DNA of 32,204 nt. Source: Ignavibacteria bacterium. Lineage in GTDB: Bacteria > Bacteroidota > Ignavibacteria > UBA10030 > SZUA-254. The notes beneath the pieces were generated by a model that saw nothing but the letters and a program-made list of their open reading frames with translations, searched no databases and had not been told where the DNA came from. Every line of letters begins with the position of its first letter. Within the stretch, counting starts at the first letter, position 1. Both the position numbers and the translations under genes were made by a program. The stretch covers positions 1 through 32,204 of the forward strand of contig JACOSX010000027.1 of the NCBI GenBank assembly GCA_016178625.1, given 5' to 3'. This document shows positions 14,522 through 23,765 of this stretch, in pieces.

Positions 14522-14937
14522 TCGAACATCTCCCCACGCTCAATGCACTGCTCAATGCAACAAGTGCAATCCTCCTTGTCACGGGTCATCATTTCATAAA
14601 ACGAGGGAACAAAGTTGCTCACAAAAAATGCATGATAGCAACGTTCTCGGTCTCCACCCTATTCTTGATTTCCTACCTTACTTACCATTATCATCATGGT
14701 ACAACACGTTTCATGGGAGAAGGCTTCATCCGTCCGGTGTATTTCACGATCCTGATTTCTCACACGATTCTTGCTGCTGCGATTGTCCCCTTCGCGATCA
14801 TTACATTGCGTCGGGGCTTGAGAGATCAGATCGAGAAACATGTGAAGATTGCTCGTTGGACATACCCCATCTGGCTCTATGTATCTTCAACGGGGGTCAT
14901 CGTATACCTCATGCTCTATCATCTCTATTCCAGGTGA
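14518..14937 (+). CDS. ctaM: DUF420/CtaM-like membrane protein
   Basis: The 139-residue protein has four membrane helices and DUF420 features: LNALLNATSAILLVTG near the start, HHFIKRGNKVAHKKCM, SYLTYHYHHGTTRF and the C-terminal ARWTYPIWLYVSSTGVIVY. DUF420 proteins (CtaM/YozB) are needed for haem A-containing oxidases in Firmicutes and sit beside SCO genes in many phyla. Conserved histidines near the membrane could bind a metal. It is the last gene of the oxidase block; the next promoter follows 35 bp later. Confidence 0.88.
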   Translation: MIEHLPTLNALLNATSAILLVTGHHFIKRGNKVAHKKCMIATFSVSTLFLISYLTYHYHHGTTRFMGEGFIRPVYFTILISHTILAAAIVPFAIITLRRGLRDQIEKHVKIARWTYPIWLYVSSTGVIVYLMLYHLYSR

Positions 14938-14972: not shown

Positions 14973-15001
14973 TTGACAATTTCCAAAATTCTTCGTATCC
15001 T
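14973..15001 (+). promoter_or_regulatory. Near-consensus promoter of the trp/aro supraoperon
   Basis: TTGACA (14973-14978) is a perfect -35 box, followed after 17 nt by TATCCT (14996-15001). Transcription should start near 15008-15010, just before or within the leader-peptide coding region, leaving almost no 5' untranslated sequence. No convincing Trp-repressor palindrome overlaps it. Confidence 0.75.
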
Positions 15002-15012
15002 TTCCCATGATT

Positions 15013-15099
15013 ATGAACTCAACCACCAAGTATATCGCTCTTCGTTATTGGTTCTGGTGGAGCGCGTCCTTATCGCTTGGTGGGAAGAGAATGGCATAA
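15013..15099 (+). CDS. trpL: Trp leader peptide of the trp attenuator
   Basis: A 28-codon frame runs from ATG 15013 to TAA 15097-15099 (an in-frame ATG at 15007 is also possible). Its product contains Tyr12-Trp13-Phe14-Trp15-Trp16: three Trp codons (15049, 15055, 15058) within four codons, flanked by Tyr and Phe. Such a peptide directly ahead of trpE is the hallmark of ribosome-mediated attenuation: scarce Trp-tRNA stalls the ribosome and changes mRNA folding downstream. No Shine-Dalgarno precedes either ATG, and the predicted transcription start is only a few nt upstream, so initiation may be leaderless. CCACCAAG (15023-15030) can pair with CTTGGTGG (15076-15083), a candidate leader stem. 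The frame is too short for ordinary gene finders. Confidence 0.75.
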   Translation: MNSTTKYIALRYWFWWSASLSLGGKRMA

Positions 15100-15119
15100 G
15101 TAAGTTTATATTCGAAGTA

Positions 15120-15157
15120 AGAGAAGCCCTTCTTGGAACACCAGGAAGGGCTTCTCT
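15120..15157 (+). terminator. Attenuator hairpin in the trp leader
   Basis: AGAGAAGCCCTTCTTGG (15120-15136) pairs over all 17 positions, with one G-U wobble, with the arm 15141-15157 around the loop AACA. It starts 20 nt after the leader-peptide stop codon, where an attenuator would lie. It is followed by GCTAATGGG rather than a T-run, so it is not a textbook intrinsic terminator. It may act as a T-less terminator, a pause site or a block to ribosomes. Confidence 0.6.
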
Positions 15158-15163
15158 GCTAAT

Positions 15164-15189
15164 GGGCCTCAGAGCAATACCCTGAGCCC
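15164..15189 (+). promoter_or_regulatory. Second hairpin in the trp leader
   Basis: GGGCCTCAG (15164-15172) pairs with CTGAGCCC (15182-15189) with one bulged C, 6 nt after the main attenuator hairpin and about 43 nt before the trpE start. The tandem arrangement suggests it belongs to the same leader switch. Confidence 0.4.
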
Positions 15190-15232
15190 GCGGAACTGTT
15201 CATCCCTAAACTGGCAATATAAAAGATCGAAA

Positions 15233-16630
15233 ATGAACTTCGACGAATTCAAAGAGCTTGCGCAATCATATAATGTCATTCCTGTAAGCAAGACACTGCT
15301 TGCAGACATGCTGACGCCTGTTTCTGCTTATTTACGTCTGCGGTCAGGGAGTAAAGGCTCGTTCCTGTTCGAGAGCGTCGAGGGTGGCGAGCGGTTCGCG
15401 AGATATTCCTTCATCGGTCGGGATCCCCATACAATACTGAAGTGCAAGTCCAAAAGGACATCGATCATCGAAAAGGACAAGCAGCGAGAATCAACAGAGA
15501 ATTTTCTTGACATCACTAACAATGTTATTGCGCACTTCCGACATCCCTCGATTCCTGGTCTTCCACGTTTCACCGGCGGCCTCGTCGGTTTCATCGGTTA
15601 CGACGCGATACGGTTCATTGAAGATATTCCCGAAACTGCCTCTGATACTCTTCACTTTGATGACAGCATCCTGGGACTCTTCACGTCTATCGTCGTGTTT
15701 GATCACTACAAACATCAGATCATTATCATCGTCAACGTTGTTCTTGATGAACGCTCGGACCTTCGCCATCAATTCGATGAGACCCTTCGGGAGATTAGCA
15801 ACGTGGAGTCACTTCTCTGGCAGTCTGTCCCTGAGCCACAACGCTTTCATTCCCACGCTGATCAGCTAAGCAAGGAAATGTCGCCAGACGAATTCCATTC
15901 GATCGTTAGAAAGGCAAAACAGTATATTGCATTCAACGCATACAGGACATTGCGGGTCGTCAACCCTTCTCCCTATCTTTATTATCTTGACTTCGGCGGA
16001 TTCAAGGTCATTGGATCCTCACCTGAGATTCTCGTTCGCATGGAAGGGAATACTGCGGAAGTTTACCCCATCGCCGGAACGCGACATCGAGGGACATCCG
16101 ATGCCGAGGATCAACGACTGGAGAGAGAACTACTCGCCGACCAGAAGGAGCGTGCTGAACATGTGATGCTCGTTGATCTTGGTCGGAACGATTTAGGCAG
16201 AGTCTGTGAACCGGGAACGGTTCACGTGGACCAGCTTATGACTATCGTGCGGTATTCCCACGTTATGCATATCGCATCGCGTGTGGTTGGGACGATTACG
16301 AAGGGAAAGACATGTGTTGACGTATTGAAAGCAACGTTCCCGGCAGGTACGGTCTCGGGTGCGCCAAAGATTCGCGCGATGGAGATCATTGATGAGTTAG
16401 AGGGTGCTCGCCGGGGCATCTATGCAGGGGGCGTCGGGTATTTAGATTTCTCCGGGAACATGGATATGTGCATCGCGATCCGGACGATGTTTGCAGTCAA
16501 CGGTAGGATCTATCTGCAGGCAGGAGCGGGAATAGTTGCAGATTCTGATCCGGAGACAGAGTATCAAGAAACTATCAACAAAGCGCGCGCGCTGGTAGAA
16601 GCCTTGCACATGGCGGAAAGAATCTCGTGA
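15233..16630 (+). CDS. trpE: Anthranilate synthase component I, with a conserved segment missing
   Basis: The 465-residue enzyme, with TrpG, converts chorismate and glutamine to anthranilate. It shows the feedback region (LFESVEGGERFARYSFIG, 45-62; NPSPY, 244-248), AGTRHRG (281-287), ERAEHVMLVDLGRNDLGR, SHVMHIAS, PAGTVSGAPKIRAMEI and QAGAGIVADS. At residues 231-238 the sequence runs YIAFNAYR. In homologues about 20 residues including GDIFQVVLSQR come between 'AK.YI' and 'F..YR.LR', so this copy has an in-frame gap around nt 15929-15932. The flanking motifs are intact. First structural gene of the supraoperon; it overlaps trpG by 1 nt. Activity with the gap is uncertain. Confidence 0.94.
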   Translation: MNFDEFKELAQSYNVIPVSKTLLADMLTPVSAYLRLRSGSKGSFLFESVEGGERFARYSFIGRDPHTILKCKSKRTSIIEKDKQRESTENFLDITNNVIAHFRHPSIPGLPRFTGGLVGFIGYDAIRFIEDIPETASDTLHFDDSILGLFTSIVVFDHYKHQIIIIVNVVLDERSDLRHQFDETLREISNVESLLWQSVPEPQRFHSHADQLSKEMSPDEFHSIVRKAKQYIAFNAYRTLRVVNPSPYLYYLDFGGFKVIGSSPEILVRMEGNTAEVYPIAGTRHRGTSDAEDQRLERELLADQKERAEHVMLVDLGRNDLGRVCEPGTVHVDQLMTIVRYSHVMHIASRVVGTITKGKTCVDVLKATFPAGTVSGAPKIRAMEIIDELEGARRGIYAGGVGYLDFSGNMDMCIAIRTMFAVNGRIYLQAGAGIVADSDPETEYQETINKARALVEALHMAERIS

Positions 16631-17208
16631 TGATTCTGATTATCGACAACTATGATTCGTTCACTTACAACCTCGTTCAACTTGTGGGACAGCACACCAA
16701 GGATTTCATCGTGCTTCGCAATGACAAGGTGACTACGAAGGACATTGAGCATCTGAACCCCGATGGGATACTCATCTCTCCAGGTCCCGGTCGTCCTGAA
16801 AACGCAGGGATTTGTGTCCAACTCATCCGCACGCTTGGGCACAGGATTCCAACACTGGGAATTTGCCTAGGTCACCAAGCCATAGGACACGCTTTTGGTG
16901 GAACAATTACTCACGCGTCCCAGCTTATGCACGGGAAGACATCTGCCATCCATCATGACCAAGAGCATCTATTCCACAGTCTTCCTACTCCGTTCGAAGC
17001 GACACGATATCACTCGCTGATTATTTCAGAAAACAATTTCCCTGGTGAATTAATCATCACGGCACGGACAGAGGACAATACCATCATGGGCATCAGACAT
17101 CGACACTACCCGATCGAGGGGATCCAGTTTCATCCCGAGTCCGTGTTGACAAAGGTGGGTCCCCAGATCATCGCGAACTGGCAAAGTATGCTTACGGAGG
17201 TCACATGA
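16630..17208 (+). CDS. trpG: Anthranilate synthase component II (glutamine amidotransferase)
   Basis: The 192-residue class I amidotransferase supplies ammonia to TrpE. The catalytic triad is Cys79 in GICLGHQAIG with His168 and Glu170 in GIQFHPESVLT. The oxyanion motif PGPGRPENAG (51-60) and the start IDNYDSFTYNL are diagnostic. ATG 16630 overlaps the trpE stop (TGATG); a GTG one codon earlier is also possible. It overlaps trpD by 4 nt. It is not fused to TrpE or TrpD. Confidence 0.96.
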   Translation: MILIIDNYDSFTYNLVQLVGQHTKDFIVLRNDKVTTKDIEHLNPDGILISPGPGRPENAGICVQLIRTLGHRIPTLGICLGHQAIGHAFGGTITHASQLMHGKTSAIHHDQEHLFHSLPTPFEATRYHSLIISENNFPGELIITARTEDNTIMGIRHRHYPIEGIQFHPESVLTKVGPQIIANWQSMLTEVT

Positions 17209-18215
17209 AAGAGTTCATCGAAAAGGTTAGTACAGGCCAACACCTCACGTGCAAGGAAGCCGCAATGGCTATGCGAAAGATCATGGAAGGTCAAGCAACC
17301 GACGCTCAGATCGCCGGCTTTTTGATTGCGCTGAAAGTGAAAGGTGAACACCCCGACGAGCTGCTCGGATTTGTGGAAGTCATGCGCGAGAAATCGGTGA
17401 AGGTGACGATCGACAACCATGACGCCATCGATATGTGCGGCACCGGCGGCGATGGAGCAGGAACGTTTAATATCTCAACTGTGGCATCGTTCGTTGTAGC
17501 TGGTGCGGGAGTAACAGTTGCAAAGCATGGTAATCGTTCCATCTCCAGTTCGTGCGGCAGCGCAGACGTGTTGAAGGCACTCGGCGTGAACATCGAACTC
17601 ATCCCCCAGAAAGTGGAAGGATGTATCAACACGATCGGAATAGGATTTCTCTTCGCACCACTCTTCCATCCGGCAATGAAACATGCTGCCAAACCACGTT
17701 CAGAGCTTGGGGTGAAAACGGCATTCAATCTTCTCGGACCTATGACGAACCCCGCGGGTGTGAAACGGCAACTTGTCGGGGCATTCAGTCATGACGCGGC
17801 ACAGAAGATGGCAACCGTGTTCTCACAACTTGGCTCGATCAGAGTGTTCATTGTACACTCTCACGATGGTCTGGATGAGATTTCTCTTGAGGAACCGACG
17901 ACGGTGTTTGAAGTGAACAATCAACTCCTCGATGGCAACTACGACGTAGAATCGAAAGCATTCGGCTTACCCACCGTCAAACGAGACGCCCTGAGCGGCG
18001 GTTCAGCAGAAACAAACGCGAAGATTGCGATGAATATCCTTGAGGGGCACAAAACTCCCCACCGAGACGTCGTGGTAGCAAATGCAGCGTTTGGGTTACT
18101 CGTTGCCGGACGAGCACCTAACGTCCGGGAAGGCGTTCAGATGGCGGTTGAATCGATCGATTCTGGACAAGCATTCAAGAAATTAAACGACCTGAAATCC
18201 TTTACTCAGCGATGA
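17205..18215 (+). CDS. trpD: Anthranilate phosphoribosyltransferase
   Basis: The 336-residue enzyme transfers the phosphoribosyl group of PRPP to anthranilate. The PRPP-binding signature CGTGGDG is at 78-84, KHGNRSISSSCGSADVLKALG (107 onward) forms the anthranilate/PRPP site, and the conserved acidic pair lies in HDGLDE. The length is normal for the family. It starts with an ATGA overlap on trpG and ends with a 4-nt overlap on trpC. Confidence 0.96.
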   Translation: MKEFIEKVSTGQHLTCKEAAMAMRKIMEGQATDAQIAGFLIALKVKGEHPDELLGFVEVMREKSVKVTIDNHDAIDMCGTGGDGAGTFNISTVASFVVAGAGVTVAKHGNRSISSSCGSADVLKALGVNIELIPQKVEGCINTIGIGFLFAPLFHPAMKHAAKPRSELGVKTAFNLLGPMTNPAGVKRQLVGAFSHDAAQKMATVFSQLGSIRVFIVHSHDGLDEISLEEPTTVFEVNNQLLDGNYDVESKAFGLPTVKRDALSGGSAETNAKIAMNILEGHKTPHRDVVVANAAFGLLVAGRAPNVREGVQMAVESIDSGQAFKKLNDLKSFTQR

Positions 18216-19012
18216 ACATCCTCCAGTCCATAGTCGAGCATAAACGAGAAGAAGTTGCCTCTCGAAAACAGAAGATCAAGCGATCCACTCTTCTGGAGTC
18301 TGAGTTCTTCAATCGGACAACGGTTTCACTTCAGACCAGTTTGAATAACCACAAGGTCTTCGGAATCATTGCTGAGATAAAGCGCTCCTCTCCTTCGGCC
18401 GGTTCATTACGCCCTACTGTCGAACCCTCGAAGATCGCCGAGGAATACGAAGCGAATGGAGCGGCGGGGATTTCTGTTCTGACCGACGAACGTTTCTTCG
18501 CTGGAACGCTCGACGATCTACAACGAGTGCGCCAATCGGTAACGCTTCCAGTTCTCCGAAAGGATTTTATTGTTGATGAGTACCAGGTCTATGAAGCTAA
18601 AGCGTTCGGCGCTGATGCGATCCTGCTGATTGCCGGTGTACTCGAACGGTCCCAATTATGTGAGCTTCACGTAGCTGCACAAGAGTTAGGTATGGAATGT
18701 TTGGTCGAATTGTATGAAAGGGCGGAGATTGATATATTAGACTTCGACCGCATGAAACTCATTGGAATCAATAATCGAGACCTCCGAACATTCAAAGTCG
18801 ATCTCAATCGTACATTCACGATCGCACAAACAATTCCGAAAGATTGTACGATCGTCAGCGAAAGCGGGATTCACACCTCTGACGATTTGAAACGATTGCA
18901 AGGTGCACAAATCGGGGCGGCGCTGATCGGGGAACATTTTATGAAAGCCAGTGACCCGGGTAAGTCGTTAAGAGATCTACTGTCAGGTTTAGACGATGGG
19001 CGTCCGCGTTAA
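18212..19012 (+). CDS. trpC: Indole-3-glycerol phosphate synthase
   Basis: The 266-residue TIM-barrel enzyme closes and decarboxylates the CdRP intermediate to indole-3-glycerol phosphate. Active-site residues: Glu55 and Lys57 in AEIKRSSPSAG, Lys117 in LRKDFI, Glu166 in CLVELYE, and GINNRDL (185-191). The phosphate-binding ends SESGI and AALIGEHFM are present. It is a stand-alone TrpC; TrpF is encoded separately and overlaps it by 17 nt. Confidence 0.96.
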   Translation: MNILQSIVEHKREEVASRKQKIKRSTLLESEFFNRTTVSLQTSLNNHKVFGIIAEIKRSSPSAGSLRPTVEPSKIAEEYEANGAAGISVLTDERFFAGTLDDLQRVRQSVTLPVLRKDFIVDEYQVYEAKAFGADAILLIAGVLERSQLCELHVAAQELGMECLVELYERAEIDILDFDRMKLIGINNRDLRTFKVDLNRTFTIAQTIPKDCTIVSESGIHTSDDLKRLQGAQIGAALIGEHFMKASDPGKSLRDLLSGLDDGRPR

Positions 19013-19616
19013 AATATGTGGAATCACGAGATCGGAAGATGCCATCTACAGCACACATGCAGGCGCTGATGCGCTCGGGTTCATTTTTTATGAGCGCAGT
19101 CCACGTTATGTCAGCCCTACTAACGCAGCCAAGATTATTGAAGCACTTCCTTCGTTCATCACGCCCGTCGGAGTTTTCGTCAACGAACGACGAGAAATGA
19201 TTGAGCAGGTCATCTCGCAAACTCGAATTCGGATCGTCCAAATGAGTGGAGACGAACAACCTGAAGATTGTTTAGGATATCCTGTAAAAGTATGGAAGAC
19301 GTTCCGAATCAGAAATCATGAAGAGATAGAGAAGGTGCGACGGTATTCAATTTCAGCAGCAATGCTCGATGGGGCAAACTCAACACAATACGGGGGTTCA
19401 GGAACGCTCGCCGATTTCGCGATTGCTCGTGAAATAAAGAATATTCATCCCCTCGTCCTCGCAGGAGGACTACATCCGGAGAATGTTGTTGGGGCAATTC
19501 GGAGTGTCGAACCGTACGCTATCGACGTCAACAGTGGAGTCGAGTCCGCTCCTGGCAAGAAGGATCATTCAAAAATCGCGTTATTGTTTGAGCGACTGGC
19601 TCAGATAAATCAATAA
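18996..19616 (+). CDS. trpF: Phosphoribosylanthranilate isomerase
   Basis: The 206-residue TIM-barrel enzyme isomerises PRA to CdRP. Cys8 in KICGIT and Asp125 in AMLDGA are the expected catalytic residues, and [10 protein letters not shown] plus DVNSGVES form the phosphate site. The usual VQLHG motif reads VQMSGDE, so the His is replaced by Ser. ATG 18996 lies 17 nt inside trpC, which points to coupled translation. A 17-nt gap with AGAGGA then leads to aroF. Confidence 0.95.
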
Positions 19617-19633
19617 ATCGAAGAGGACAGAAA

Positions 19634-20680
19634 ATGCTTATCGTGATGAAATTAGATGCGCCCCGCACCGACATTGATCGGGTGAAAGAAAAAATCCGCG
19701 CGCTTGGATACGTTCCCCATGAAATTCCGGGCGATCACCGCTTGGCAATTGGCATCACAGGCAACAAGAGTCGCCCCGATGCCGAGCAGTTCCTGAACCT
19801 TCCAAGCGTTCTGGAAGCCATTCCGATCACAAAACCCTTTAAGCTTGTTAGTCGAGACGTTAAACCCGAAGATTCGATTGTCGACGTGAACGATGAAGCG
19901 ATCGGTGCTCGAGAGCTCACAATCATCGCAGGTCCTTGTTCCGTCGAGAGCCGGCAGCAAATCATCGACATTGCTTGTACTCTCAAGGAGTGTGGTATAA
20001 AATTTCTCCGCGGTGGTGCATATAAGCCGCGAACGTCGCCGTATTCGTTCCAAGGGTACAAGACAGAGGCGCTCCAGTATCTCAAAGATGCCCGAGATAT
20101 CACGGGACTCCGCATCGTGACGGAAGTTAAGGATACCGAGACCTTGCCAATGGTCGCAGAATGTGCTGATGTTCTTCAGGTTGGTGCACGGAACATGCAG
20201 AATTATTCTTTGCTTGAAGCTGTCGGGGCTCAACGAAAACCGGTGCTCTTGAAGCGCGGGCTCTCAGCAACAATCGAGGAATTGTTGATGGCTGCGGAAT
20301 ACGTCCTCAATGGGGGAAATTACAACGTGATCCTATGTGAACGAGGCATACGCACATTCGAACCTGCAACGCGTAACACGCTCGATCTCAATGCTATTCC
20401 GATCATCAAAAAGCTTTCGCATCTCCCCGTCATCGTCGACCCGAGCCATGGGATAGGCGTTTGGGATGGGGTTGCTGCAATGTCGCTTGCTGCAATCGCC
20501 GCTGGCGCAGATGGTCTCATCATCGAGGTGCACCCTGATCCCGCGATGGCACTGTCGGATGGATACCAATCACTCAAGCCATCTAAATTCAAGATCCTCT
20601 TAGATAAACTTGAACAGCTTGCCCAAATTATGGATCGAACATTCACCCGATCACCGCAGAGCGTTGAGGCTATACGATGA
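19634..20680 (+). CDS. aroF: 3-deoxy-7-phosphoheptulonate (DAHP) synthase with N-terminal ferredoxin-like regulatory domain
   Basis: The 348-residue type I-beta enzyme (Thermotoga/Bacillus-like) condenses phosphoenolpyruvate and erythrose 4-phosphate, the entry step of the shikimate pathway. Residues 1-70 ([10 protein letters not shown]...[12 protein letters not shown]) form the ferredoxin-like domain that mediates feedback inhibition in this subtype. The barrel has AGPCSVES with the metal ligand Cys102, [31 protein letters not shown] and DPSHGIG. It sits between trpF and trpB, so entry flux is set together with tryptophan synthesis. It overlaps trpB by 4 nt. Confidence 0.96.
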
Positions 20681-21894
20681 ACCAGATTATCGAGACGCTA
20701 CCCGACAAGACCGGACACTTTGGGAAGTTCGGCGGCAGATTCGTTCCTGAAACATTGATTTCCGCACTCCATGACCTGGAGTGCGCGTACTTTTCAATTA
20801 AGGGTGACGCCGCCTTTCAGGCGGAGTTCAAATCGTTACTGCAAGACTATGTCGGTCGACCAACCCCATTGTACTTTGCCAAACAATTGACGGCAAGATA
20901 TGAGAAAGCAAGAATCTATCTGAAGCGGGAAGATCTCTGCCATACCGGCGCGCATAAGATCAACAATACGATCGGTCAAATACTCCTCGCGAAATACTTG
21001 GGCAAAACACGGATCATCGCCGAGACAGGTGCGGGACAGCATGGAGTTGCCACCGCCACTGTTTCAGCCATGATGGGATTGCAATGTGCGGTGTACATGG
21101 GCACGGAAGATATGGCGCGACAGGAAATTAACGTCACCCGCATGCGGTTGCTTGGCGCCGAAGTGATTCCCGTAACCTCTGGTACCAGAACCTTGAAGGA
21201 TGCTACCAACGATGCCCTCCGCGATTGGGTCGCAACAGTGCGCGATACATTCTACGTCATAGGATCAGTCGTGGGTCCTCATCCCTATCCAATGATCGTG
21301 AGGGATTTTCAGTCTGTGATTGGCCGGGAAACAAAGCAGCAGATACTCGAGAAAGAAAAGCATCTCCCAAGCCACCTGATTGCCTGTGTAGGAGGGGGGA
21401 GTAACTCTCTGGGATTATTCTATGATTTTCTCTCCGATGACGTCCGGATGATCGGTGTTGAGGCAGCGGGTTTCGGAGTGGCCAGTGGTAAGCATGCAGC
21501 AACACTCACCGCGGGAACCCCGGGTATTCTTCATGGCTCGTACAGTTACGTCTTGCAAGATGCAGCCGGGCAGATTCTTCCTGCCCACTCGATCTCCGCC
21601 GGTCTCGATTATCCGGGGGTTGGTCCGGAACATAGTTACTTGAAAGATATCGGTCGCGTCAAGTATGTTTCTGTAACAGATGAAGAAGCACTCGAGGCAA
21701 CTTTCAGGCTGACATCGTGCGAAGGTATTCTCCCTGCCCTCGAATCATCCCATGCCCTTGCATATCTCGAATACTTAATGCCTCAAACATCTCCGAATGA
21801 TACAGTAGTCGTGAATCTCTCAGGCAGAGGTGAAAAGGATCTTCCTACTATCATACAAGCATGGACGAAACGCGGACAGAAGGAATTACGTTGA
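20677..21894 (+). CDS. trpB: Tryptophan synthase beta chain
   Basis: The 405-residue PLP enzyme joins indole and serine. The Schiff-base lysine is Lys94 in [26 protein letters not shown] and the phosphate-cup motif GGGSNSLG are present, as is the start [12 protein letters not shown]. It is of the TrpB1 type, which works with TrpA. ATG 20677 overlaps the aroF stop; its own TGA overlaps the trpA ATG by one base. Confidence 0.97.
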
Positions 21895-22697
21895 TGAATC
21901 GCCTCGCCGACCATCTTACACAGCTTCGTACTCGAGGCAGAAAGGCGTTGTCACTTTTCGTTACTGCCGGATATCCGAGTGTCGATTCAACCGTCCCATT
22001 AGTCGTTGAGTTATCAAAATCCGGCGTAGACCTGATCGAACTTGGGATCCCCTTTTCTGATCCGATTGCTGACGGACCCACAATTCAGATGAGTTCTGAG
22101 ACAGCATTACGGAATGGCATGACGCTGCAACGGACATTGGAGATGGCAGAAGAAATTAGGAAGCGCTGTTCAGTTCCACTTGTGCTGATGGGGTATGCAA
22201 ACCCGGTCTATACATACGGAACCAAGAAATTCGTTTCGCGATGCGCAGAGATCGGTGTCGATGGCATGATCATCCCCGACGTCCCTCTCGAAGAAAGCGC
22301 AGAATTCCAGCGACTCTCACAAGAACACAACATCGCAATGGTGTTTTTGGCCGCGCCCACGACTCCCGATGAGAGACTCATTCAGCTCGATGAACATTCC
22401 ACAGGATTTCTTTATTGCGTTTCGATAACCGGAGTCACCGGAGCAAGGCAAGGATTGGCAAACCAGGCGGAGGAATTTCTTCAACGAGCACGCAGGTGCG
22501 TGAAGAGGAATCCACTCCTCGTCGGTTTTGGCATAGCGACCCCTGAGGATGCGCGTCGAGTCGGCAGCATCAGCGACGGAGTCATTATTGGCAGCGCCCT
22601 CATGAAAGTCATCGGGAATGCGTCTGGCAACCACGTGGTTGAGAACGCCATTCGTTTCATCACACCAATTCGCAATGCACTCGATACATTGGAATAA
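21894..22697 (+). CDS. trpA: Tryptophan synthase alpha chain
   Basis: The 267-residue TIM-barrel subunit cleaves indole-3-glycerol phosphate to indole and passes it to TrpB. Catalytic Glu49 (IELGIPFSDP) and Asp60 (IADGPTIQ) fall at the same numbers as in Salmonella; YCVSITGVTG and GFGIATPEDA complete the phosphate site. The start at ATG 21894 (AAGGA 9 nt upstream, TGATG junction) is preferred over ATG 21861, which would extend 11 codons into trpB. Confidence 0.96.
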   Translation: MNRLADHLTQLRTRGRKALSLFVTAGYPSVDSTVPLVVELSKSGVDLIELGIPFSDPIADGPTIQMSSETALRNGMTLQRTLEMAEEIRKRCSVPLVLMGYANPVYTYGTKKFVSRCAEIGVDGMIIPDVPLEESAEFQRLSQEHNIAMVFLAAPTTPDERLIQLDEHSTGFLYCVSITGVTGARQGLANQAEEFLQRARRCVKRNPLLVGFGIATPEDARRVGSISDGVIIGSALMKVIGNASGNHVVENAIRFITPIRNALDTLE

Positions 22698-22700
22698 GTG

Positions 22701-23765
22701 ATGCCCACAAAAGTGAGAGTGCGCCTCCGAGGCGTAATTGACAATTCCTATGACATTGTGATCGGAATTAAAATAGGAGGAATAGTTCATGGGCTATTGG
22801 AATTCCCTTCTCTCAAAAAATTCGTGATCACGGATTCGAACGTAGGCCCATTGTATAGAACATATTTTAAACGGCCGGATTTTCACTTGCTTACCGTCCC
22901 CGCAGGTGAACGAAGCAAGAGTCGTAGGTCAAAGGAGCTACTGGAAAACAATCTTCTTGCGTTAGGTGCTAATCGAGATTCCCTTATCGTCGCTCTCGGT
23001 GGCGGGATGGTCGGCGACCTTGCCGGCTTTGTGGCAGCTACTCTCTTGCGTGGAATTCCCTACATTCAGATCCCAACGACACTCCTCGCCCAAGTGGATA
23101 GCAGCATCGGTGGGAAGGTTGCTATTGACCATCCGTTAGGGAAGAATCTTATCGGTGCATTCTATCAGCCTCAGAAAGTGTATATAGATATTGGAGCATT
23201 GAAAACACTTCCTGATCGTGAGTTCTCGAATGGATTGGCGGAAGTTATTAAATACGCCGCGATACTCGATTCAGAATTATTCGATGAGCTTGAGCAGAAG
23301 CAGTCAAAGATCCTAAGTCGAGACGAGAAATCTCTCCTCAACATCATTAAGCGATGTTGCGAATTAAAAAAGAGTGTCGTCGAGGAAGATGAAAAGGAAA
23401 CTGATTACCGTCGGATTTTAAACTTTGGACACACTATCGGTCATGCAATCGAGCGTCTCTCAAAGTATAGGATCCCACATGGTCAAGCAGTTGCGATCGG
23501 AATGGTCGCAGAGTCGACCATGTCCTCTCACCTAGGGATATTGCCAGCCCGCCACGCCGAACGGATCACTTCACTTCTGAAGATGTACAACTTACCAACA
23601 GAAATCCCTTCGACTATTAAGCTCGAAGCAATCATGCGCGCGACATTGCAAGACAAAAAAGTTCATAGAGGTATGACGCACTACACACTCCTCGAAAGAA
23701 TCGGGCGTGCCCGCGTCGGCGTAAGATTGTCATTGAAGCAAGCCCGACTCTTAGTGCAGTCATGA
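22701..23765 (+). CDS. aroB: 3-dehydroquinate synthase
   Basis: The 354-residue NAD- and metal-dependent enzyme makes 3-dehydroquinate from DAHP. Seen are the NAD motif GGGMVGDLAGFVAATLLRGI, PTTLLAQVDSSIGGKVAID, the metal site within GLAEVIKYA, and LNFGHTIGHAIE. ATG 22701 is preferred to the GTG one codon earlier; GGAA at the end of trpA is 6 nt upstream. It overlaps aroDE by 4 nt. Confidence 0.95.
   Translation: MPTKVRVRLRGVIDNSYDIVIGIKIGGIVHGLLEFPSLKKFVITDSNVGPLYRTYFKRPDFHLLTVPAGERSKSRRSKELLENNLLALGANRDSLIVALGGGMVGDLAGFVAATLLRGIPYIQIPTTLLAQVDSSIGGKVAIDHPLGKNLIGAFYQPQKVYIDIGALKTLPDREFSNGLAEVIKYAAILDSELFDELEQKQSKILSRDEKSLLNIIKRCCELKKSVVEEDEKETDYRRILNFGHTIGHAIERLSKYRIPHGQAVAIGMVAESTMSSHLGILPARHAERITSLLKMYNLPTEIPSTIKLEAIMRATLQDKKVHRGMTHYTLLERIGRARVGVRLSLKQARLLVQS

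Follow-up and report, generated by a model that had tools for sequence, protein, structure and literature searches.

A probable ribosome-mediated attenuator with a presumably leaderless Trp-rich leader ahead of the trp operon in an Ignavibacteria genome

The trp operon in the window (the whole 32,204-nt stretch of DNA analysed) is preceded by a short Trp-rich reading frame and a long hairpin. This raises the question of whether a translating ribosome decides if the operon is transcribed, and which alternative folds of the leader RNA could carry that decision. The original prediction had read the arrangement as a probable trp attenuator, and this reading is supported here by conservation of the leader and by partner-swap tests of both of its helices. 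The trpEGDCF-aroF-trpBA-aroB genes all run in one direction from position 15233, in an Ignavibacteria-type genome whose assembly comprises 3.36 Mb in 177 contigs and is 97% complete. The nearest named relatives of its TrpE come from metagenome-assembled genomes labelled Ignavibacteria or Ignavibacteriales, the closest at 68% identity. The gene upstream ends at 14937 and trpE begins at 15233, leaving an intergenic region of 295 nt. A DAHP synthase gene (19634-20680) lies between trpF and trpB, and aroB (22698-23765) follows trpA; with these two genes inside the trp operon, an attenuator would control the way into the shikimate pathway too. The features of the locus are as follows.

14973-15001, plus strand: sigma-70-type promoter, TTGACA (14973-14978) and TATCCT (14996-15001) with a 17-nt spacer; similar spacing to the leader ATG in relatives
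15007-15099, plus strand: leader ORF MIMNSTTKYIALRYWFWWSASLSLGGKRMA, from ATG 15007 (30 codons) or ATG 15013 (28 codons) to TAA 15097-15099; no Shine-Dalgarno sequence
15023-15030, plus strand: segment 1 (CCACCAAG), pairing with 15076-15083 (partner-swap test)
15049-15060, plus strand: sensor codons Trp-Phe-Trp-Trp, with TGG at 15049, 15055 and 15058; Trp cluster kept in relatives
15076-15095, plus strand: segment 2, the antiterminator strand, within the leader ORF, immediately ahead of the stop codon (partner-swap test, core covariation)
15120-15157, plus strand: terminator hairpin of 17 bp with an AACA loop and weak T content behind it (CTTCTCTGC; RNA fold)
15126-15145, plus strand: terminator bases taken by the antiterminator, the lower 5' arm and then the loop and 3' arm (masked fold, swap test)
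15164-15195, plus strand: second small GC-rich hairpin, GGGCCUCAG..CUGAGCCC, between terminator and trpE (RNA fold)
15233-16630, plus strand: trpE, the first regulated gene (TIGR00564 over cut-off)
16627-23765, plus strand: trpG, trpD, trpC, trpF, DAHP synthase (aroF type), trpB, trpA and aroB (NCBIfam matches)

Direct reading confirmed the 28-codon frame and the positions of its three Trp codons, and every coordinate in the original prediction proved correct. A comparable frame, defined as an ATG frame of 10-45 amino acids with three Trp in four codons, did not arise once when the 295-nt intergenic region was dinucleotide-shuffled 3000 times. The entire leader also folds better than all of its shuffles (200/200, z -3.8).

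Conservation was assessed in 102 trpE upstream regions from sampled genomes of the same class, which were screened for short frames containing a Trp cluster. A trpE gene was counted as operon-heading when no long open frame ended shortly before it; on this simple criterion, 72 of these trpE genes head an operon and 30 lie directly behind another gene. A short ORF with clustered codons for the end product of the pathway, Trp-Phe-Trp-Trp in the window, was found ahead of 69 of the 72 operon-heading genes and of none of the 30 internal ones (Fisher p=9e-23, a value that overstates the evidence because related genomes are not independent samples; the leader is nonetheless absent from all internal trpE). 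Three Clostridia loci (L088, L090 and L108) and L149 also have Trp clusters, which were left out as unrelated frames. In families f4, f12, f20 and part of f6, trpE follows another gene and lacks a Trp leader (L010, L018, L019, L006, L122 and others). The leader peptides vary between WFWW, WAWW and WWWW, and the sequence outside the Trp cluster is variable. A hairpin follows the leader in 88 distinct leaders, and in nearly all of them a run of T comes next. A check of the relatives for loss of the Trp-rich frame or of the stem thus gave nothing against the attenuator.

The promoter reported upstream of the leader is present at 14973-15001, and the transcript is predicted to start at about 15008, on the first ATG and 5 nt short of the second. 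A TTGAC..TA promoter could be placed in 81 of the 88 leaders. In nearly all of these the predicted start coincides with the leader ATG or precedes it by 0-11 nt, and none of the 81 has a Shine-Dalgarno-like motif before that ATG. Lack of a Shine-Dalgarno sequence is common in Bacteroidota and therefore says little; the argument comes from the short promoter-to-ATG spacing. To judge from the predicted start, the leader transcript would be effectively leaderless, and the earlier suggestion that a leaderless ribosome senses the stall is strengthened by the equally short spacing in relatives. In two studied members of the phylum such 5' ends are rare genome-wide, those below 10 nt amounting to about 3.7% in B. 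thetaiotaomicron and leaderless or very short ones to 5.5% in F. psychrophilum (PMC9723704).

The hairpin at 15120-15157 begins 20 nt past the leader stop codon, with the 17-bp stem and AACA loop originally described, and has a folding energy of about -30.5 kcal/mol. An Rfam mir-3158 match to it (E=0.25) was dismissed as chance. The T count behind it is the lowest of the 88 related terminators, with no more than four T in any eight bases; only 4 of the 88 leaders have five T or fewer in any eight bases around the hairpin 3' end, and reduced T-tracts also occur in three close relatives (L003, L012 and L023). A search with the standard terminator pattern gave no terminator-like site at the window hairpin. 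With the weakest T-tract of the 88 and no standard pattern, efficient intrinsic termination in the window is not assured. The original prediction was thus right that the hairpin lacks a T-tract, but this is not a trait of the mechanism, since a U-tract after the hairpin and before the first structural gene is found in nearly all relatives and is missing from the window itself. The missing T-tract is a peculiarity of the window's genome and its nearest kin.

The second hairpin, at 15164-15195, has no T-tract and no second copy in the window's genome, and may not be part of the switch. Some relatives (L004, L002 and L034) carry other, unrelated extra sequence at the same place. The region 15100-15232 was also considered as a repeat element and rejected, as it has no second copy in the genome and its sole other match is the palindrome itself.

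The original prediction had found no clean antiterminator, a statement that did not hold. When the part occupied by the ribosome was masked, 15076-15095 folded against 15126-15145: CUUGGUG pairs with CACCAGG in the terminator loop and 3' arm, while GAGAA pairs with UUCUU and GGC with GCC in the 5' arm. This pairing and the terminator at 15120-15157 are mutually exclusive. Moreover, the first eight bases of segment 2 have a second partner on the 5' side of the Trp codons, 15023-15030, with which they form a protector helix (1:2). Leader lengths differ too much between families for a single alignment, so a partner-swap test was used in place of a covariance model of the whole leader; it compares pairing of each strand with its own partner against pairing with partners from other leaders, in 58 mutually dissimilar leaders. 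Own partners paired better both for 2:terminator (p=3e-11) and for 1:2 (p=6e-8), and the control combination 1:terminator gave nothing (p=0.19). Taken singly against dinucleotide shuffles, 39 of the 58 leaders reached p<0.05 for 2:terminator and 25 of the 58 for 1:2, which is weak or absent in some leaders. In the window alone, 7 of 1000 shuffles were as good for 2:terminator and 27 of 1000 for 1:2, and a second run of 200 shuffles gave p=0.015 and p=0.06, respectively. The protector helix is therefore supported class-wide and is marginal against shuffles in the window alone. In the eight-pair antiterminator core, pairs 2-4 change on both sides (U-A, C-G, A-U and G-C types) in many leaders, and the core is 90% paired compared with 67.5% (sd 1.6) when partners are shuffled. 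The helices were chosen as the best by energy, a choice that the swap test controls for and the core pair table only partly; the latter illustrates rather than proves coevolution, because its helices were preselected for pairing.

The distance from the last Trp codon to the start of the antiterminator is narrowly kept (median 20 nt, interquartile range 18-22, SD 4.6, n=61), whereas the antiterminator position relative to the leader stop codon is looser (SD 10.5; Levene p=5e-5). In 38 dissimilar leaders the SD was 5.1 from the Trp codon and 10.8 from the stop codon (p=0.001). The corresponding gap in the window, from the last Trp codon to segment 2, is 15 nt. A fixed gap of this kind fits a switch keyed to a Trp-halted ribosome with the antiterminator strand just ahead of it, and it is not what a device based on the stop codon or on the peptide would need. 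A ribosome is expected to cover about 13-15 nt ahead of its A-site codon. Folding of the window RNA was also computed as the chain grows. With no ribosome, 1:2 had formed already at 15100, followed by the terminator. When a ribosome was placed on the Trp codons, 83-99% of the antiterminator pairs held while the RNA end lay at 15143-15148; in longer RNA, the finished terminator wins over the antiterminator at equilibrium. Placing the ribosome at the stop codon left the terminator as the one structure able to form. As the terminator is favoured at equilibrium in these models, the switch would have to be kinetic, as is usual in attenuators.

Taken together, these features make it very probable that transcription of the trp operon is controlled here by ribosome-mediated attenuation, in which the sensing ribosome would initiate at or very near the 5' end of the RNA. 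In the proposed mechanism, segment 2 would be unavailable in two situations, being paired with segment 1 when no ribosome is present, and covered by the terminating ribosome when translation runs fast to the stop codon. In both, the hairpin at 15120-15157 would form and transcription would end short of trpE. A shortage of charged tRNA-Trp would stall the ribosome at the Trp codons (15049-15060), where it would separate segment 1 from segment 2. The latter, beginning about 15 nt further on, would then be able to capture the terminator strands 15126-15145 as they emerge, and RNA polymerase would read through into trpE. Against this scheme stand, besides the weak T-tract, the equilibrium preference for the terminator and the weakness of 1:2, the place of segment 1, which is a little upstream of the expected footprint and not under the stalled ribosome. 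The 1:2 helix may be blocked by the stalled ribosome itself, by distance, or with the help of a second ribosome waiting at the 5' AUG. With an AUG at the RNA 5' end, a queued second ribosome would cover segment 1, and queuing is thus perhaps part of the sensor.

Several other readings of the locus were weighed against this one. The poor T content, lowest of the 88, the lack of a standard terminator pattern, the reduced tracts in three close relatives, and the extra sequence with a second hairpin between terminator and trpE could all mean that the attenuator of the window has been weakened, its T-tract decayed and its leader partly a vestigial relic in front of a poor terminator. This is unlikely, as the 17-bp stem is still a duplex, the former T positions have matched partners, and the Trp codons, segment 1 and the antiterminator, which drift would erode, are intact. 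The same missing T-tract would suit a hairpin that works as a pause site or stops transcription with the help of a factor, NusG or Rho, while the choice of fold stays with the stalled ribosome. Against this, the homologous hairpins are followed by ordinary T-tracts at the equivalent position in nearly all relatives, and this version is considered quite unlikely.

A role of the leader peptide in translation, by reinitiation or coupling to trpE, or in trans in the manner of Sinorhizobium peTrpL, is very improbable. Trans-acting leader peptides do exist (PMC7298713), but the peptide here is variable outside its Trp cluster, 136 nt separate the leader stop codon from the trpE start, against about 80 nt in a typical relative, and coevolving alternative helices at a fixed distance from the Trp codons are explained by a fold switch in cis. 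Since the hairpin could serve the upstream gene too, it might even be that gene's terminator, placed by chance next to a Trp-rich frame. The shuffled intergenic regions, the restriction of the leader to operon-heading trpE and the swap tests refute such an adjacency, whose probability is negligible.

The attenuator reading can be compared with known systems. As in the window, the Escherichia coli trp attenuator (trpL; Rfam RF00513) has a leader peptide with Trp codons ahead of trpE and alternative protector, antiterminator and terminator helices, and a stalled ribosome frees segment 2. It differs from the window (see PMC1183508) in that its segment 1 overlaps the Trp codons, whereas that of the window is upstream of them. 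The window antiterminator, in contrast to that of E. coli, is nearly antisense to the terminator apex, taking mainly the loop and 3' arm with part of the 5' arm, and its leader has no Shine-Dalgarno sequence and a predicted 5' end 0-11 nt from the AUG. Covariance models detected no Rfam Trp_leader (RF00513) in the window at the gathering threshold or at E<=1, and no T-box or other Rfam family; T-box and TRAP control in Firmicutes are alternative solutions for the same operon, which in the window would be controlled by a leader peptide. The Sinorhizobium meliloti trpL/rnTrpL RNA is likewise a trpE leader and begins at the trpL ATG, leaderless (PMC7298713). It belongs to an Alphaproteobacterium and encodes a 14-aa peptide; a sequence relation is not expected. 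Actinobacterial trp attenuators (Corynebacterium, Streptomyces) share UGG-repeat leader peptides, T-tract terminators and antiterminators (PMC1262725), but occur in another phylum with other conserved pairing triplets. A leaderless ilvB leader was reported in C. diphtheriae (PMC5784534).

Vitreschak and colleagues reportedly listed some candidate attenuators in Bacteroidetes/Chlorobi in 2004. The literature searched yielded no publication on attenuation in Ignavibacteria, and the original prediction had stated that no case was characterised in this part of the FCB group. This stands with one caveat: for Flavobacterium psychrophilum, which belongs to the same phylum if that is taken broadly, 'strong clues', and no more, of attenuation by leader peptides in front of amino-acid operons are described (PMC9723704). 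That organism belongs to another class, and the portion of the report available here contains neither Ignavibacteria nor a pairing model.

Trp leaders also occur ahead of many sampled trpE genes in other classes of the phylum (L259-L302). Their best antiterminator mostly follows the classical scheme, pairing with the terminator 5' half at 9-21 nt past the last Trp codon, while the 3' half is used by the Ignavibacteria type and by two genomes of family f41; a clade-level change of switch layout is possible. No Trp leader was found in the genomes of family f37 and several others among the sampled trpE of these classes. His-run leader peptides with a terminator precede hisG in several relatives, at 300-560 of L191 (MNSLRHHHHHHHARTGSSGG) and in many of L233-L246 (e.g. 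MKNIPATYHLHHHHFNSKRAG), and constitute a histidine attenuator built to the same general plan. In L191, too, the T-tract of the terminator is weak. No His or Leu leader peptide was seen at hisG or leuA of the window's own genome. A Trp-repressor-family gene (PF01371, E=7.5e-19) is located directly upstream of its hisG (L197 2132-2395, minus strand, contig C62).

These results do not describe a new mechanism but a well-supported, class-wide variant of ribosome-mediated attenuation. Its antiterminator layout is unusual and its predicted leaderless start is conserved, in a phylum for which the literature searched holds only hints (PMC9723704). Very tentatively, and with low confidence in the claim as a whole, trp attenuation could be old and general in the phylum rather than a proteobacterial or actinobacterial speciality, with a distinct Ignavibacteria design (leaderless ORF, Trp codons outside segment 1, terminator 3' half captured about 20 nt past the Trp codons) in which queuing may be part of the sensor. 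Trp leaders across the class, with His leaders beside them and Trp leaders in other classes too, make the age and independent origins of attenuation testable. They also form a large natural set from organisms in which Shine-Dalgarno sequences are hardly used; on their presumably leaderless transcripts, the spacing between sensor codon and antiterminator serves as a ruler of the stalled ribosome.
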